From an uncultured Cellulophaga sp. (GTDB taxonomy: Bacteria > Bacteroidota > Bacteroidia > Flavobacteriales > Flavobacteriaceae), in NCBI GenBank assembly GCA_947492955.1, contig CANLOV010000001.1, positions 558,001-622,000 of the forward strand: DNA of 64,000 nucleotides, written 5' to 3'. The notes under the pieces were generated by a model. The model searched no databases and was not told the origin of the DNA. It saw only the letters and a list, made by a program, of their open reading frames with translations. The position numbers were made by a program, and so were the translations under genes. Below, piece after piece: positions 28,249-60,715 of the stretch. Numbering within the stretch: the stretch's first letter is position 1; the number at the start of each line of letters is the position of its first letter.

Positions 28249-29139
28249 TTAAAAAATACAAGTGTTGGGAGCAGATTTTTTATAGTAACTACGGTAGTTT
28301 TTTGCCTTAGGATTCATACATCCTTTTAAATTTCGGATACTTATATTTCTAAAATCTACAGGTTGCCCCTCGCTTTGTAAAGCAATATAACCTTCTTTTA
28401 ATGGTGTGCCATCTATTTTTGCTGTGGGGTTAAATCTATGAACTACTTCTCCTCCAATATGTGGTTTTGTATACTCTAACACTTTTTCTCCATTTATATA
28501 TTGAGTAACTAAAGAATCTCCCAAAACAATTATTTCTGCACGTACCCACTCCTTACCATAATAAGTTTTAGAGCTAGATTTTATACAATGTTTTTCGGCT
28601 AGTTTTCCTTGGTAAAAAACATGAGTACCAGGCGAGCACATATTGCCTGTGGGTCTATCTTTATTTTTATCAATACCACCTAAAAATTGCATTTCTACAG
28701 AAATAGGCCAGTCTTGTTCTTTAGACATTGTTTTTGGGTCTTGTGAATGATACATAAGGCCACTATTCATTTTTGTAAAAATTGGGGCGCCAGGATGTAA
28801 ATCACCCGTAAATCTATATTCCAGTACCAAATGGTAATAAGAAAATGGCTTGTTATAATATAAGTGTCCAAAACGGTCGTTAAAATCGCCTTCGTAATTG
28901 TTATAACGAACTTTTATAATACTATCTTCTACTCGGAACGTATTTCCGTAATTATCTCCAACTTTATAATGCTGAATTTTAGTAGTCCAATTTTTAATGT
29001 CTTTACCATTAAAAAGTTGTTGCCAACCATCATTAGATAATGTGCTGGTAGATTTTATACTTTTACATTGGAAACAGGTAAAACATAAGATAAAAATGAC
29101 ACTTATTTTTAAAATAGGAGTAATAATTATTTTAAACAT
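28249..29139 (-). CDS. DUF1080 (3-keto-disaccharide hydrolase-like) lipoprotein
   Basis: A 296-residue lipoprotein (lipobox FQCKS). The DUF1080 domain spans about 35-265 and is a concanavalin-like fold: GWQQLFNGKDIKNWT, NSGLMYHSQDP, ISVEMQFLGG, and a closing EGYIALQSEGQPVDFRNISIRNL. The C-terminal tail (GCMNPKAKNYRSYY...C) is a short cysteine-flanked motif common in Flavobacteria. Related enzymes hydrolyse 3-keto-glycosides. In this window DUF1080 genes occur twice, each beside a GH16 gene, which links them to galactan breakdown. Confidence 0.86.
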   Translation of the reverse strand: MFKIIITPILKISVIFILCFTCFQCKSIKSTSTLSNDGWQQLFNGKDIKNWTTKIQHYKVGDNYGNTFRVEDSIIKVRYNNYEGDFNDRFGHLYYNKPFSYYHLVLEYRFTGDLHPGAPIFTKMNSGLMYHSQDPKTMSKEQDWPISVEMQFLGGIDKNKDRPTGNMCSPGTHVFYQGKLAEKHCIKSSSKTYYGKEWVRAEIIVLGDSLVTQYINGEKVLEYTKPHIGGEVVHRFNPTAKIDGTPLKEGYIALQSEGQPVDFRNISIRNLKGCMNPKAKNYRSYYKKSAPNTCIF

Positions 29140-42633: not shown

Positions 42634-42670
42634 AAAAAACTCTCAGTATTTAAGCTGAGAGTTTTTTTGT
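42634..42670 (+). terminator. Terminator after the GH2 gene
   Basis: AAAAACTCTCAG at 42634-42645 pairs perfectly with CTGAGAGTTTTT at 42655-42666, with a 9-base loop and a T-run. Confidence 0.88.
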
Positions 42671-42803: not shown

Positions 42804-43484
42804 ATGAAATCATTAAAAATTAGTATGCTTGCTGTAATATCATTTCTTGCCTTAGGAAATGTAAATGCTCAAAAGTTAAAAGCTTTTGGTAGTTCTATTG
42901 AGAAAAAAATTGGACCAGTAGTTAAGAAAGTACCTTATACAGATGTTGTTAGTTATTTGGGACATGCTGCACCCAATACAGAAGATGAAGTAAAAAATGG
43001 AAAAAAATTCTATTACATTTATGTTTGGATTCCTGCTGTAGCACCAGAATTAGGATTGCGTATGATGTCTCCTGCTGGTAGTGTTAAAATAAAAAATGCT
43101 ATTAAAGGAGCAAGTTATGATTCTAATGCTAAATCTAAAGATTATTTTGATACTTACATTACTTTAGAGAGGTCAGATATTTTAACTGAAGGAGCAATAA
43201 AGAATGCAGCAACTGCATCATGGACAATTTTAGCAAGAAATGATGATAGTGGAGAAATGCCTAAGCAACCTAGTGGAAGTAGTTACAACTCTTTATTAAG
43301 ATATGAAAGTAAAGTAGGAGACCCATTAAAAGCATTAACAAGAGGATTGTACAGAATAGGTTTTACAACTTATAAAAGGGGAGAGGTAAACGGAACATTT
43401 TTGGCACAAATAGGTTCACCAATTAAGTTGCCAGGTGTTGTAATGGCTAAGACAGTAGATGAGTTGTTGGCTCAAATGAAATAA
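42804..43484 (+). CDS. LipL32-like exported protein
   Basis: A 226-residue exported protein. The signal peptide is residues 1-22 (ending VNAQ). The mature part follows the Leptospira LipL32 surface lipoprotein closely: YYIYVWIPAVAPELGLRMMSPAG, YFDTYITLER, SYNSLLRYESK, and TRGLYRIGFTTYKRGEVNG. In LipL32 these regions form the jelly-roll core with a calcium-binding acidic loop; here NDDSGE is in the corresponding loop. There is no lipobox Cys, unlike LipL32. LipL32 binds extracellular matrix. Here it may bind an algal surface or the cell's own surface; this is inference. Confidence 0.82.
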   Translation: MKSLKISMLAVISFLALGNVNAQKLKAFGSSIEKKIGPVVKKVPYTDVVSYLGHAAPNTEDEVKNGKKFYYIYVWIPAVAPELGLRMMSPAGSVKIKNAIKGASYDSNAKSKDYFDTYITLERSDILTEGAIKNAATASWTILARNDDSGEMPKQPSGSSYNSLLRYESKVGDPLKALTRGLYRIGFTTYKRGEVNGTFLAQIGSPIKLPGVVMAKTVDELLAQMK

Positions 43485-43504
43485 TTTTATTTAAATAATA
43501 GATT

Positions 43505-43538
43505 AAAAAATAGGGAGACATATGTCTCCCTATTTTTT
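43505..43538 (+). terminator. Terminator after the LipL32-like gene
   Basis: A 34-base perfect palindrome (AAAAAATAGGGAGACAT with its complement directly following, no loop) beginning with an A-run and ending in a T-run. Confidence 0.85.
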
Positions 43539-43717
43539 AATCTATACATTATGTTTTAATACATAAATATTATTAATAGCAAATATGTTTTTAAACACTG
43601 CGGATATAAGTTTGTTATTTCTAAAAGAGAGGGTTAAGAATATTTTTACGATATATAATATGTTTCTAAAAAGAATAGGAACTTTTAAAATTAATGTAAA
43701 AATTTAAAACAATAAAA

Positions 43718-44269
43718 ATGAAAAAAATTATTTTAGGATTAGCAACTTTGGCTTTTATTGCATGTGGTAAAACCACAAAACTGGGAGAAAATGCATCATC
43801 TATTAATTCTGCAAAAGAGAAATTGGATGATAAGTTTGGTAAGGATGCTCATTATACAAGTATAACTATAACTGATACAGAACATGGGTCTATTTTAGCG
43901 GCTACAGTAACAGAAAATCCTTCTTCTTTAAAAATGGGAGATTGGGCATATTTTCAAAATAGTTGGAAGCAGAATTCAGAAATTACATTAGAATTAAGTG
44001 AAGGCTCTAAGGCAGAAGATTTTATGTTTCAAATAAAAGATGGTATTGTTGATTTTGATTTGTTAGGGAAACTAGTGGAGCAATCAAAAGAAAAAGTGGC
44101 AAAAGAGAAAAGTATTGATGTTGTTACCGAATTAATTTCTATTAACGCTCCAAATAATGGCGATTTTGAAAAAATGAGATATTTCATAACTACTATACCA
44201 GAAAACGGAGGAACTACATTTAAGTTTTGGTATAAAATGGATGGGTCGTTAGAAAATTTTGACTATTAA
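43718..44269 (+). CDS. Lipoprotein of unknown function
   Basis: A 183-residue lipoprotein, lipobox FIAC at residue 16. The mature protein has a mixed alpha/beta pattern with HYTSITITDTEHGSIL and MGDWAYFQNSW. No family recognised. It is on the same strand as the LipL32-like gene and has its own terminator downstream. Confidence 0.65.
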   Translation: MKKIILGLATLAFIACGKTTKLGENASSINSAKEKLDDKFGKDAHYTSITITDTEHGSILAATVTENPSSLKMGDWAYFQNSWKQNSEITLELSEGSKAEDFMFQIKDGIVDFDLLGKLVEQSKEKVAKEKSIDVVTELISINAPNNGDFEKMRYFITTIPENGGTTFKFWYKMDGSLENFDY

Positions 44270-51148: not shown

Positions 51149-51880
51149 TTATTTTAGTAATCTAGATACAAATTCTTCTTTTTTTCGTGTAGCTACGGGT
51201 ATTTTTTCTCCTGATTTTAAGAAAACATATCCATTTTTGTCATACCTATCTACATACTTTAAATTTACAACGAAAGATTGGTGTGTTCTTATAAATGTGC
51301 TTTCTGGTAATTGACCCTCAAACTCTTTTATAGGTTTAGAGGCTATATAGTTTTTTTTATTATCTAGATAAAATGTGGTGTAGCCTTTATCGGATTGGCA
51401 GTACATTAACGATTCAAAACGTATAACCTGGTAACCTTCTTGTAGCCTTAAAACCATATGCTCTTTTTTATTGTCTACTAATTGTTCTTTTACAATTTCT
51501 AAACGTTCTTGTTGCTGATTAGAAGTAGAATTTATGGCTTTATCAATAGCAGCTTCTAATTCTTCAATATCTACGGGTTTTAATATATAATCTATAGCAC
51601 CATTCTTTAAGGCTTGTAGAGCGTATTGATCGTATGCGGTAATGAATATAACCTGAAAAGATAATTCTTTTACGTTTTCTAAAAAATCAAAAGCAATACC
51701 ATCTTTTAAGTTAATGTCTAAAAAAACTAAATCGGGTTTACACGCTTTTGTTACCGTAATGGCCTCTTTTACACTTTCGCACTCCCCTAGAATATCAACT
51801 TCTTTATTAAGAGATTGTATCATAGAGATGAGTCCTTTTCTAATATATAATTCGTCTTCTACAATTAATGCTTTAATCAT
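51149..51880 (-). CDS. LytTR-family response regulator
   Basis: A 243-residue response regulator. The receiver domain (about 1-120) has EDELYIRKGL, the phosphorylation Asp in DLVFLDINLKDG, and KPVDIEELEAAI. The LytTR DNA-binding domain (about 140-240) has YQVIRFESLMYCQSDKGYTTFYL and FIRTHQSFVVNLKYV. It overlaps the preceding kinase gene by 4 bases (ATGA). It should be phosphorylated by the downstream partner kinase and bind a direct repeat near target promoters. Confidence 0.92.
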   Translation of the reverse strand: MIKALIVEDELYIRKGLISMIQSLNKEVDILGECESVKEAITVTKACKPDLVFLDINLKDGIAFDFLENVKELSFQVIFITAYDQYALQALKNGAIDYILKPVDIEELEAAIDKAINSTSNQQQERLEIVKEQLVDNKKEHMVLRLQEGYQVIRFESLMYCQSDKGYTTFYLDNKKNYIASKPIKEFEGQLPESTFIRTHQSFVVNLKYVDRYDKNGYVFLKSGEKIPVATRKKEEFVSRLLK

Positions 51881-53586
51881 AATTCTTCGTTTTTATGAGG
51901 TAATATTAAGGTGATTTTATTTCCAGCGTAGCCACTATTAACATTTTCGATATGTAGATCGGAGGCTATATTAAGTCTTTTAGAGAAGATTTTTAATAAC
52001 TCTTTAGATTTTATATAAGTATCTATTTTCTTTTCTAGAAGCTGTTTTTCATTTTCCTTACTTTCTATACCATTATCTGTAATTACACAATTAAGAGTTT
52101 CTTTAAAGTAGCTTAATTTAATTTCTATAATTGGGTTCTCAGTCTCTTTGGTGTTACAATTTATGATTGCTTGTTCTATAAATGGTTGAACAAGCATAGG
52201 AGGTATATATATATCTTTATCTTTTAATTCGTTGTTAATATGTATTTTGTAGTCAAAACTATTTTCTACTTCAAGCTGTTGTATTTCTAGATAGTATTTA
52301 ATTGTATTTATTTCATCTATTAATAAAATTAGCGGTTTTCTTGAGCTCTCTAAAATTAGGCGTAATAATTTAGAAAACTTTGATATGTATTGAACACTTT
52401 TAGGGTTTTTGTTGTTAATCATTCCCTTCATAGTTAACAAAGAATCAGATAAATATTCTGGTTTAAGCTTTGTCCAGTTTAACCTCTGATTCATTAGAAC
52501 ATTTTTATATGAAGATTGCATAATACGATACTTAAAAAACAAAACAGCAATTATTAAAATAAAAATTAATGTAAATAAAGCTAAGGTTCCTTTTAATATT
52601 TCACTTTTAGACTCGGTAAGTTTATCATCTATATATTTAACTTTTTTTATTAACCTATTTTCATTTTTGTTAGCAGCTTCAATAGAAAGAATTTTTTCTT
52701 TAATCCTTTTCTGTAAAAGTGCTTCGTTGATTTGATAAATACTATCTAATGAAGATATAGCAATGTTTGTATTGCCATTTAGTTTATGTAAAGTATAGAA
52801 ATTTTCGAAAATACCTCTTTTGCTAGTTAGCCTACTATCAGGTGATAAATTATTATATGCAGAGTCTAAATAAATTTTAGCTAGTTTCCAATCTCCTTTT
52901 TTTGTGTAGGCAGAGCCAATATTATTGTATTTAACATTTAAATCTGCATAGTATTTTTCTTGTCTATTTCTATGAGATTCTAGGCTTTTTTTTAAATAGA
53001 AAATAGCTTCATCATACTTTTTTAATTGTAATAGAATAATCGCAAAATTATTAGAGTAAATAGATAAATTTTGATATTCTTTTTTTGTTATTTTTTTATA
53101 AGAGTTATACGCTTTTTGCCCTTGTAAATTATGATGATATAGCATACCGCATTTAAAACACAGTTTCATAAATTCTATAGAATCCTTTTTTTTAAAAAAT
53201 GGAGTAATAGAATCACAAAACTTAACACCTTCGTCTATTCTATATAAATCTATAAGATGTTCCGCTTTTAGGTTAAATGCCTTTAATAGGTTTGCAGCAT
53301 CTTTTTTTTCTGATGCTTTCTGAATCATTTCACTAGATAGTACATATCCATTTCCAAATTGTCTTGTTCTTCCGTATGATCTAGAAAGCCAAAAATATTC
53401 TTTAAAAGATAATTCATTACTAGCTTGCTTTTTTGTTAATATACTTATTACGGAGTCATATTCTCTTTGCTTAAATAATAGCTCTGTGGTATTTTTATTT
53501 GTTTGACTCCATAAAATAGAACTCCCTAAAGTATATAGGAATAAGAATAATACTATATTTAAATATGTGGTTTGGTTAGTAATCAT
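51877..53586 (-). CDS. Degenerate LytS-type kinase (probable pseudokinase)
   Basis: A 569-residue protein with the layout of the adjacent kinase: a signal-like helix, TPR-type periplasmic region (about 30-300), membrane helix (about 333-352) and a His_kinase-plus-ATPase C-terminal half. The key residues have changed. The phospho-acceptor motif PHFIFNSL of the neighbour reads KPEYLSDSL, with Glu377 in place of the His. The N-box Asn is Gln472 (PFIEQAI) and the G1 loop reads DNGIES. It has therefore probably lost both phospho-transfer and ATP hydrolysis but kept the fold. It may act as an allosteric partner of the active kinase. Confidence 0.85.
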   Translation of the reverse strand: MITNQTTYLNIVLFLFLYTLGSSILWSQTNKNTTELLFKQREYDSVISILTKKQASNELSFKEYFWLSRSYGRTRQFGNGYVLSSEMIQKASEKKDAANLLKAFNLKAEHLIDLYRIDEGVKFCDSITPFFKKKDSIEFMKLCFKCGMLYHHNLQGQKAYNSYKKITKKEYQNLSIYSNNFAIILLQLKKYDEAIFYLKKSLESHRNRQEKYYADLNVKYNNIGSAYTKKGDWKLAKIYLDSAYNNLSPDSRLTSKRGIFENFYTLHKLNGNTNIAISSLDSIYQINEALLQKRIKEKILSIEAANKNENRLIKKVKYIDDKLTESKSEILKGTLALFTLIFILIIAVLFFKYRIMQSSYKNVLMNQRLNWTKLKPEYLSDSLLTMKGMINNKNPKSVQYISKFSKLLRLILESSRKPLILLIDEINTIKYYLEIQQLEVENSFDYKIHINNELKDKDIYIPPMLVQPFIEQAIINCNTKETENPIIEIKLSYFKETLNCVITDNGIESKENEKQLLEKKIDTYIKSKELLKIFSKRLNIASDLHIENVNSGYAGNKITLILPHKNEEL

Positions 53587-55280
53587 ACAAGGGTATTCTG
53601 TTGTTTTAATACGTATGGTAATTTTAAAATAACTTTAGTTCCTTGTTCATTACTCATTTTTAAATCTTCTATAATAACAAAAAAATTATGCTTCATTTTT
53701 TTAGACAAAATGGCTAATCTGTCTTCTACTATTTTTATTGCTAAGGAAGATTTTTCCTTACTTTTTTTTGTTGAACCCGATAAAAAACCTATGCCATTAT
53801 CTTTTATAATGCATTGTAGTATTTTTCCTTGCATAGTAAAATGTATGTCAATTACAGGTTTTTTTATTTCTTGTTTAAAGCCATGGATAATAGAATTCTC
53901 TATAAATGGCTGAATAATCATTGGAGGTATTAAAAACTCATTCTTAATATTTTTATCAATATTAACTATAAAACTCACTTCTTTTTTAGCACTAAGGTTT
54001 TGTAAATCAACATAATCTTTTAAGCCTATAATTTCTTCATTTATTGGAATAAATTTTTGAGATTGATCCTTTACAATAAACTTTAATATGTTCGAAAATT
54101 TTGACAGGTATAGTGATGCCTTATTATGCTCATTATTTAGCACCATTCCTTGAACAATGGAAAGTGAATTAAATATAAAGTGAGGTGTCATTTGTGAAGT
54201 AAGTAACTCTTGTTCATTTAAGACTTTTTGATATTTTAGTTTTATATTTTTATACATATATAAAAGAGCTAAAGAAGTCATTGCAATAATTAAATAAGCT
54301 AGAATAAGGTACCCGGTTACTTTTGTTTTATTTGTTGTTTTTATTTCCTTATCTATAGAGGTAACTCTTTTGGTAAGAATGTTTTTTCGTTGGTTTATGG
54401 CAGATAGTTCCTGTGTTTTTTCTTTTATTTTAGTATCATAAACATAGTTGTTATAATCATCAATTTGATGAATAATATTTAATGCTTCATTATGTTTTCC
54501 TTGTAGTGTGTAAAAATGATAGTAAGTTTTTAACCATTCTTTTTTATGAATAACCTTTTTTGTGTGTTGTAAGGTGTAAGAAGCAGAATCTAAATATTTT
54601 TTAGCCTTTTTCCAGTTTTTATATACTATTGAAATTTTAGCAATGTTAGTTAGGCCAACATTAATATATTCTAATTCATTTGCCTCATAACTAATATCAA
54701 TTCCTTTCTTTAGATAATATAGTGCTTTAGGATATTTTTTTAAATTCATTAATATAACACCATTGGTATTAATATAAATAGGCGTTTGTTTTAATTCTTC
54801 ATTAGTGATTTTTTTATATGTATCATAAGCTTTTTTATAGTTGTCACCATCGTTATACAAAACACCACACTTAACACATAGTTCCTGTAAAAAAGGTGCA
54901 TTGCTTTTTTCTAAATATAAAATTGCACTATCACAAAAAGTAACTCCTTCATTAGTTTTTGATAAGTCTACTAAGTTTTCTGCTTTTAAATTATAGGCAA
55001 TAGATAAATTTTTTATTTGGTTTGTTTCTTGTAACTCTGATATGGCTTTATCTAGAAGAACAAGACTTTTATATTGTTTATTAACTTTACTGTAAGATTT
55101 AGATAAAATAAAAATGTCATCAATAGAAAGATTTGTTGATCGTTCTTTATTAGTAAGATTTTTAATAACATCATCGTATTTTTTTTGATTAAAAAGTTCA
55201 GTTAAGTTGTTAGACTGAGCAACTATAGCTATAGAAAAAAAGAAACAGAATAGAATAAGACTTTTTTTTAAAAAATGCAT
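53583..55280 (-). CDS. LytS-type sensor histidine kinase with TPR sensor
   Basis: A 565-residue kinase. The signal peptide is residues 1-21, with TPR-type repeats at about 25-300 and a membrane helix at about 322-343. The His_kinase domain contains SQMTPHFIFNSL with His367 as the phospho-acceptor. The ATPase part has IPPMIIQPFIENSIIHGF (N-box Asn462) and DNGIGF. All the key residues are intact. It is first in a three-gene operon with 4-base overlaps (kinase, pseudokinase, LytTR regulator). The neighbouring galactan genes suggest a glycan-linked signal, but this is inference. Confidence 0.9.
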   Translation of the reverse strand: MHFLKKSLILFCFFFSIAIVAQSNNLTELFNQKKYDDVIKNLTNKERSTNLSIDDIFILSKSYSKVNKQYKSLVLLDKAISELQETNQIKNLSIAYNLKAENLVDLSKTNEGVTFCDSAILYLEKSNAPFLQELCVKCGVLYNDGDNYKKAYDTYKKITNEELKQTPIYINTNGVILMNLKKYPKALYYLKKGIDISYEANELEYINVGLTNIAKISIVYKNWKKAKKYLDSASYTLQHTKKVIHKKEWLKTYYHFYTLQGKHNEALNIIHQIDDYNNYVYDTKIKEKTQELSAINQRKNILTKRVTSIDKEIKTTNKTKVTGYLILAYLIIAMTSLALLYMYKNIKLKYQKVLNEQELLTSQMTPHFIFNSLSIVQGMVLNNEHNKASLYLSKFSNILKFIVKDQSQKFIPINEEIIGLKDYVDLQNLSAKKEVSFIVNIDKNIKNEFLIPPMIIQPFIENSIIHGFKQEIKKPVIDIHFTMQGKILQCIIKDNGIGFLSGSTKKSKEKSSLAIKIVEDRLAILSKKMKHNFFVIIEDLKMSNEQGTKVILKLPYVLKQQNTLV

Positions 55281-56716: not shown

Positions 56717-57613
56717 ATGAAATTTTATAAAAGCCTTTTTCTTTTTTTTATTATAGCTTCTTGTTCTCAGGTAAAAAATAAAGAACAACAAAAGCTTAAG
56801 GATACTTATAATTGGGAAGAATTGATAGATGCAGATTTAACAAATTGGGATACTTATTTAAGTTATAAGCACCAGCCTGGTTATAATGGTTCTGTGCCAA
56901 AAAATGCAGATGGAGAAGAAATAGCTCCAATAGGGTTAAATGATTCTTTATACAATGTTTTTACAACTTTTAAACAAGGAGAAGATGTTCTAATAAAAAA
57001 TACAGGAGAGTATTATGGTTGTTTAATAACCAAAAAAGAATATGCAAATTACCATTTTCAGTTAAAGTACAAATGGGGTAATAAAAAATGGGCATACAGA
57101 AAAAATTTGCTAAAAGATTCGGGTATTTTATATCATTCGGTAGGTCCTATGGCTGTAGAATATTGGAGGTCATGGATGCTTTCTCAAGAATTTCAGATTA
57201 TGGAAGGGCATACAGGAGATTTTTGGAGCCAGGCAAATTCTGCAATAGATATTCGTGCTTATAAACCAGAATCAGTTTTGGACCCTATGGCACATGAATC
57301 TCAAGATTTTATTACCTTAAGTATGAATAGCCCCTATAGAAATTATTGTCTGCGAAGCGGTAATTACGAAAAACCACATGATGAATGGAATACACTAGAT
57401 TTATATTGTTTCGAAGACAAGAGTTTGCATGTGGTAAATGGGGAAGTGGTTATGATTTTAAAAAACTCTAGATATATAGTTGAGGACGGAAAAGATGTGC
57501 CGCTTACTAAAGGAAAAATTCAGCTCCAAAGCGAAGCAGCTGAAATATTTTTTAAAGACATTAAAATAAGAAAAATAGACTCGCTAACACAAAAACAAAG
57601 TAAACTTTTTTAA
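56717..57613 (+). CDS. DUF1080 lipoprotein, second copy
   Basis: A 298-residue lipoprotein (lipobox IIASC at residue 16). It is DUF1080-like: TYNWEELIDADLTNWDTYLSY, GCLITKKEYANYHFQLKYKW, DSGILYHSVGPM, FQIMEGHTGDFWSQ, EWNTLDLYCFED, and KGKIQLQSEAAEIFFKDIKI. It is clearly different from the other DUF1080 protein here: it has a longer GYNGSVPKNADGEEIAPIG loop and lacks the cysteine-flanked tail. It forms an operon with the following GH16 gene (27-base gap). It may act on an oxidised or 3-keto sugar intermediate. Confidence 0.84.
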   Translation: MKFYKSLFLFFIIASCSQVKNKEQQKLKDTYNWEELIDADLTNWDTYLSYKHQPGYNGSVPKNADGEEIAPIGLNDSLYNVFTTFKQGEDVLIKNTGEYYGCLITKKEYANYHFQLKYKWGNKKWAYRKNLLKDSGILYHSVGPMAVEYWRSWMLSQEFQIMEGHTGDFWSQANSAIDIRAYKPESVLDPMAHESQDFITLSMNSPYRNYCLRSGNYEKPHDEWNTLDLYCFEDKSLHVVNGEVVMILKNSRYIVEDGKDVPLTKGKIQLQSEAAEIFFKDIKIRKIDSLTQKQSKLF

Positions 57614-59494: not shown

Positions 59495-60715
59495 TTATTC
59501 TCCTTTAGCTCTGTGTTCTACTTTTCTTTTAGAGGTAAAGCTCATAATACTTTGGTAGTTCCAGCTGTTATATACATGTGATAATCCCCATCGTAATATT
59601 TCAGTAGGGTCTTTTTCGTTGTCAGCAGTTCTGTTAAGACCTATGGCATGTGCGCTAACTCCTGGTATAACAGACATTATTTCAAAGTTTATTCCATCAG
59701 GAGACCATTGAATAGTGTTTTTTTCAGGACCATCTGTTGTAATTAAAGCAGCAATACCACCATTGTATGGCCAAACACAAATTTCATGCCCGCTATTACT
59801 AATAGGGTTGTATTTAGATTTTATATACGGACCTTCTGGCTTATCAGCTATTGCAACACCATGGCGTATTTGTCTACCACCAAAAGTAATTTTTTCTCCC
59901 ATTTGTTCTCCTTTGTAATAAAGATAAAATTTACCTTTATAAGGTACAATACAAGGGTCGTGTACTTTATGGCTATCAAAATCACCTTTCTTTTCAACGG
60001 CAAATCTATCTTGCTTATCACCCTTCCAAATACCATTATCAGCTGGGCTAAGTATAGGTTCTTTACTTTTTGTCCACGGTCCATTAGGAGAATCAGACCA
60101 AGCTAATCCTATTTGGTTTTTAACACGTACTGTATATGGAGATTTTACTGTTTGGTAGCATAAATAGTACTTATTCTCGTGTTTCATAATTTCAACAGTA
60201 AATACAGATCTATCATCGTACTCTCCTTTTTTACCGCGAGCCACAGCTAAGCCTTCTTCTTTCCAAGTTTCTCCGTCTTCAGAAGTCGCATACCATATAT
60301 CGCATCGGTCCCAAGGAAATACTTTGTCATTTTCTACGTCACCCCCAAAACCTTGAGTGGTACCAGTACTTCTAGAGTACCATACATAGTATTTACCATT
60401 TTCTTTAATCATAGCACTAGGGTCTCTACGAACAACCCCTTCTTCATAAGCTAAGTCTCCTTTTAATGGTTTTAAGTTAGAAAATTCAATAAACCAATCA
60501 TTGCCCAAATCTGTAGGCCATTTTAAAGCTCTTTTAGATGCTGCACTTAGGTAATTAACATTAGTTATACCCAGATGATCTATTTGTTCTTGTGTTATTT
60601 CTGTAGGCGCAGAGTTTTCTTTGCTTTCAACAGTACTTACTTTTTTAGTAGAATTACATGAAATCAATAATGTAATTAATGACAGATGAATGAATATTTT
60701 CGTTTTTAAAATCAT
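59495..60715 (-). CDS. GH117 alpha-1,3-(3,6-anhydro)-L-galactosidase
   Basis: A 406-residue lipoprotein (lipobox LISC at residue 20) with the full GH117 five-bladed propeller. It removes 3,6-anhydro-L-galactose from the non-reducing end of neoagaro-oligosaccharides. The catalytic residues are all present: Asp98 in RRDPS (base), Asp253 in HDPC, His310 and Glu311 in SGHEICVW. These correspond to D97, D252, H309 and E310 of Zobellia AhgA by the same spacing. The VRRDPSAMIKENGKYYVWYSR and DRCDIWYATSEDGETW segments resemble AhgA from memory. The gene diverges from the TPR-HTH regulator. It is the clearest evidence of agar use. Confidence 0.95.
   Translation of the reverse strand: MILKTKIFIHLSLITLLISCNSTKKVSTVESKENSAPTEITQEQIDHLGITNVNYLSAASKRALKWPTDLGNDWFIEFSNLKPLKGDLAYEEGVVRRDPSAMIKENGKYYVWYSRSTGTTQGFGGDVENDKVFPWDRCDIWYATSEDGETWKEEGLAVARGKKGEYDDRSVFTVEIMKHENKYYLCYQTVKSPYTVRVKNQIGLAWSDSPNGPWTKSKEPILSPADNGIWKGDKQDRFAVEKKGDFDSHKVHDPCIVPYKGKFYLYYKGEQMGEKITFGGRQIRHGVAIADKPEGPYIKSKYNPISNSGHEICVWPYNGGIAALITTDGPEKNTIQWSPDGINFEIMSVIPGVSAHAIGLNRTADNEKDPTEILRWGLSHVYNSWNYQSIMSFTSKRKVEHRAKGE

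Follow-up and report, generated by a model that had tools for sequence, protein, structure and literature searches.

In disease-causing Leptospira, LipL32 is the chief lipoprotein of the envelope. A relative of LipL32 is encoded at positions 42,804 to 43,484 of the stretch of DNA presented above, which comprises 64,000 nucleotides from an uncultured Cellulophaga sp. (contig CANLOV010000001.1, positions 558,001 to 622,000) and is called the window here. The calcium cluster of LipL32 has been described as Asp132, Thr133, Asp164, Asp165 and Tyr178 (PMC8951592; PMC5566480).

Besides Leptospira LipL32 itself, close relatives have been described in marine bacteria. PtlL32 of Pseudoalteromonas tunicata is likewise a LipL32-family protein from a marine, alga-associated host; it is described as a lipoprotein that affects colonisation, and is likened to the window protein on that description (Gardiner et al., 2014; PMC4080168). 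The same authors listed PtlL32-like sequences in eleven further species, among them Cellulophaga algicola, C. lytica, Formosa agariphila and Ulvibacter, and proposed horizontal transfer of the genes (PMC4080168). As described there, the proteins from marine Bacteroidetes (ADV49486 of C. algicola, ADY29818 of C. lytica, CDF79332 of F. agariphila and EDM44616 of Ulvibacter) belong to the same family and the same kind of host as the window protein. The original prediction, made from the DNA letters, proposed a LipL32 homologue with relatives in marine bacteria. These relatives are thus published for both marine Bacteroidetes and Pseudoalteromonas, the main idea is already in print for the group, and the gene adds one more member to a known family (PMC4080168).

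Family membership, calcium site and export signal

The gene and the parts of its product discussed in this section are as follows.

42804 to 43484, + strand: LipL32-family gene (PF12103), a full-length open reading frame with an ATG start, 226 amino acids
42804 to 42872, + strand: predicted signal peptide, residues 1-23 (ending NVNAQ), with no lipobox and no cysteine, recognised by eye
42927 to 43445, + strand: Lipl32 Pfam-profile region, residues 42-214
43149 to 43154, + strand: D116 and T117, aligned with the LipL32 calcium ligands Asp132 and Thr133
43242 to 43247, + strand: D147 and D148, aligned with the ligands Asp164 and Asp165
43284 to 43286, + strand: Y161, aligned with the ligand Tyr178

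That the window protein belongs to the Pfam family PF12103 (Lipl32) is practically certain. It matches the profile with 249 bits against a curated cut-off of 25 bits (E 2.9e-74), over positions 4-179 of 179, and is the single match of its genome in PF12103 and protein searches. The sole significant phmmer matches in the PDB were LipL32 itself (2zz8, 3frl and 2wfk, E 9.4e-28 to 1.4e-27), two further rows being non-significant (E 0.65 and 0.83); a 20-sequence family profile matched LipL32 in the PDB at E ~1e-43. The predicted structure superposes on LipL32 and has its jelly-roll fold. Identity with LipL32 amounts to 69 of 171 aligned residues, and the four segments named in the original prediction lie in the LipL32 order with 15/22, 6/9, 6/10 and 15/18 identities. 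Profile search and structure prediction, both proposed there as checks, thus bear out the homology. The protein is a relative of LipL32 and not a LipL32 equivalog, since it scores 104.4 bits with NCBIfam NF038394, under the curated cut-off of 300.

All five calcium-ligand residues of LipL32 are present in the aligned window protein. In 76 distinct Bacteroidota sequences of at least 195 residues, from which duplicates and shorter pieces had been dropped, Asp, Thr, Asp and Asp occur in every row and Tyr in 75, the remaining row having Phe; an earlier alignment of 75 rows gave 75/75 for the four ligands and 74/75 for Tyr. This conservation supports the predicted calcium binding, and the window protein probably binds calcium at a LipL32-type site. 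The surroundings differ somewhat: the acidic run DDDDDGDD of Leptospira LipL32 corresponds to ARNDDSGE, shortened to NDDSGE, in the window protein, which also lacks a 12-residue stretch that LipL32 has after the calcium region.

The N-terminus, MKSLKISMLAVISFLALGNVNAQ followed by K, resembles by eye the signal peptidase I type, with A22 and Q23 preceding K24; across the family these two residues are found in 74/76 and 75/76 rows. Leptospira LipL32 has a Cys20-type lipid attachment, which the window protein lacks. In its entire 226 residues there is no cysteine, no lipobox and no lipidated cysteine at the mature N-terminus, and having no cysteine it cannot be a lipoprotein; with high confidence we regard it as unlipidated. 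A normal signal peptide without a lipobox is what had been predicted. Within the family, cysteine never follows the junction between AQ and K in the 76 rows; no row has a strict lipobox, and 17 have a cysteine earlier, inside the signal peptide.

Distribution and phylogeny

Among 299 sampled Flavobacteriaceae genomes, 12 have a PF12103 match over the cut-off; so have 13 of the 18 genomes from the window's own genus, the window's genome being included in both counts, and one of 395 genomes taken across the phylum, which was again the window's own. Of the 58 loci found by a pattern-based scan of named genomes, many belong to Tenacibaculum, Aquimarina, Lacinutrix, Formosa and further marine Flavobacteriaceae, and a few to other Bacteroidota; the scan over-represents close relatives because the patterns were derived from the window protein. 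Tenacibaculum piscium, T. finnmarkense and T. dicentrarchi, which are fish-associated, are among these loci (L059-L062). Plasmid and phage records gave no LipL32-family match when searched. Three copies (L061, L069 and L071) appear interrupted or short in the deposited contigs.

In a maximum-likelihood tree of 77 rows, the LipL32 row included, the window copy lies in a 19-row clade (support 97/95) beside five Tenacibaculum rows (98/83). Its other members include copies from Tenacibaculum and Formosa, and the genus's usual copy lies elsewhere: among 17 congeners, 12 carry a copy from a separate clade (100/94) and 5 carry none. The branch of the LipL32 row is very long, so the tree is unreliable on the root. 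All 12 congener copies sit between the same two genes, rlmN-like and polyprenyl synthetase-like (named by eye). The equivalent site in the window's genome is syntenic, with ordered counterparts for 11 of the 14 open reading frames of one congener locus (L087), and there the flanking genes lie ~0.15 kb apart with no LipL32-family gene between them. Because of the separate clade and the empty syntenic site, the window copy is not an orthologue of the genus's usual copy. It was probably acquired horizontally within Flavobacteriaceae. The simplest scenario combines horizontal gain with loss of the older copy; the alternative is that the congeners gained the other copy after the window species had split off. 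The G+C content of the gene (32.7%, against 29.8% for the window) is uninformative.

Location and role

Pfam found no type IX sorting domain in the window protein at E up to 1, a search that domains lacking a Pfam model would escape. With no lipid anchor and no such sorting domain, a periplasmic location is the most likely. On the reading preferred here, a calcium-binding jelly-roll protein of the LipL32 family would be exported by Sec, cut by signal peptidase I and left unlipidated. It would remain in the periplasm, or be released in vesicles, and serve as a stable envelope protein that helps the cells to live attached to surfaces in the sea. A two-component system perhaps controls it, and its effect on host colonisation would be indirect and not that of a surface adhesin. 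A periplasmic protein with such an indirect role is a reading we hold at about even confidence. The window contains the following sensor-kinase genes.

51149 to 55280, - strand: a pair of TPR sensor histidine kinases with a LytTR response regulator; in two Tenacibaculum loci (L016 and L019) a corresponding trio precedes the LipL32-family gene

Several observations weigh against this reading. Six of the 76 family rows, all among the 17 with a signal-peptide cysteine, fit a looser, PROSITE-like lipobox inside the signal peptide, upstream of the AQ and K junction; these are the copies of five congeners (L084, L085, L086, L087 and L091; LLFSC, Cys15) and that of L065 (Cys16). Some relatives may, on this pattern, be lipidated, so that lipidation is perhaps present in part of the branch. 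Some Bacteroidota proteins may also reach the surface by routes invisible to Pfam. The kinase trio of the window starts 7.7 kb downstream of the gene and on the opposite strand, and linkage there is loose. Finally, deletion of ptlL32 in P. tunicata cut matrix binding and algal colonisation, from which its authors infer attachment (PMC4080168).

A rival reading has the protein secreted or held at the surface, where it would be an adhesin and bind matrix proteins or algal polymers directly. The original prediction suggested attachment of this kind to red algae, and the 2014 paper proposes it for the Pseudoalteromonas homologue (PMC4080168). As an account of the window protein, we consider it unlikely, if still a serious competitor. 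The window protein lacks both a lipid anchor and a sorting domain, and Leptospira LipL32 itself is reported to be largely subsurface and of weak avidity, a transposon mutant being equally adherent to matrix (PMC3544172). The patchy presence of the gene in the genus, with a copy from the other clade in 12/17 congeners and none in 5/17, fits no simple algal requirement.

The protein might instead be the extracytoplasmic partner, or a regulated output, of TPR sensor kinases, which would place the family in a signalling module. In one of the two Tenacibaculum loci (L016) the gene comes directly after genes for a pair of TPR histidine kinases with a LytTR regulator (0.1 kb), and in the other (L019) a similar trio stands 0.7 kb upstream, with a 148-residue open reading frame on the other strand between; the window LytTR regulator is 77% and 75% identical to these counterparts. 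Another arrangement is frequent in the Aquimarina-Lacinutrix-Winogradskyella group, where genes for a TPR kinase, a NarL-like regulator and a 140-residue membrane protein precede the LipL32-family gene; the regulators involved are of two different types, LytTR and NarL-like. Among 18 genomes with kinase counts, a kinase of the PF06580 or PF07730 kind lies within 8.5 kb of the gene at 10 loci (the window, L016, L019, L030, L035, L050, L052, L055, L065 and L095), against 1.37 expected, with neighbours detected by phmmer and the background by Pfam, a difference that itself counts against the comparison. The test was post hoc and the loci are related; collapsed by hand to ~5 of ~14 lineages the linkage has P ~0.003, and with 4 lineages P 0.018. 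Eight loci have no such kinase (L015, L022, L024, L036, L047, L053, L060 and L085); of these, L047 offers only 1.2 kb of upstream sequence, and at L015 the nearby kinase, 2.6 kb off, is of another class and was excluded from the count. The trio in the window is distant, and in 5 of 17 congeners the LytTR relative stands without an adjacent LipL32-family gene. The kinase linkage is a lead and not an established result, and the signalling reading is improbable.

The 140-residue membrane protein (L030:7089-7511 and relatives; G000:C1:276009-276422) lies near many LipL32-family genes and is present in 16 of the 18 genus genomes; it has no Pfam or NCBIfam matches. In the window's genome it stands beside PorP/SprF-like genes and a gene for a large surface protein (by eye).

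A likeness to LipL32 by chance or convergence, confined to short motifs, can be dismissed: we found nothing in its favour, the profile match spans the full length, the Smith-Waterman score of 286 against LipL32, computed without the first 7 residues of the window protein, far exceeds the maximum of 61 in 500 shuffles, and the fold is that of LipL32.

Neighbouring genes and wider meaning

The LipL32-family gene is flanked upstream by a GH2-family gene, assigned by Pfam, whose nearest models are the GalB and GalA beta-galactosidases, both under their cut-offs, and downstream by a gene for a small putative lipoprotein.

42640 to 42668, + strand: stem-loop with a T run that follows the GH2 gene and sets it apart from the LipL32-family gene; seen by eye and absent from the terminator-scan list
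43498 to 43545, both strands: perfect inverted repeat resembling an intrinsic terminator, just downstream of the gene, found by scan
43718 to 44269, + strand: next gene, a putative lipoprotein of 183 amino acids with the lipobox FIAC, recognised by eye

The inverted repeat accounts for three of the four sites listed by the terminator scan (shuffle mean, 0.4), and together with the stem-loop it suggests a one-gene transcript. At L015, too, the LipL32-family gene is followed by relatives of the window lipoprotein (64% identical) and of the ankyrin protein after it (45%). In two congeners (L109:6430-6984 and L110:4822-5376) a distant relative of this lipoprotein (31-33%) adjoins a LytTR regulator.

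A red-algal setting receives some support from the upstream GH2 gene and from one protein of the genome over the cut-off for PF18206, the porphyranase catalytic domain (G000:C14:25047-25349, in a 1275-residue open frame). Elsewhere in the window, a 406-residue protein with a GH43 Pfam match (59495-60715, - strand) could be a red-algal galactan enzyme, and there are two matches to the 3-keto-disaccharide hydrolase family (28249-29139, - strand; 56717-57613, + strand).

The details added here, namely the missing lipid anchor in the window protein and most of its relatives, the replaced copy and the possible kinase linkage, lift the case a little above the routine. A broader proposal is that the Bacteroidota branch is mostly an unlipidated, soluble envelope protein, mobile among marine Flavobacteriaceae and tied to periplasmic TPR kinases of two regulator types; taken whole, it is doubtful. 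If it were true, the family would at its core act in the periplasm and depend on calcium. Leptospira LipL32 would then have gained its lipid anchor and its supposed adhesin role later, and this would go some way to explain why the function of LipL32 is still unclear. The unlipidated homologues of marine flavobacteria offer a safe setting in which the conserved core may be studied apart from the lipid anchor, and a paired comparison is available within a single genus, in which a copy from one clade has taken the place of another's.
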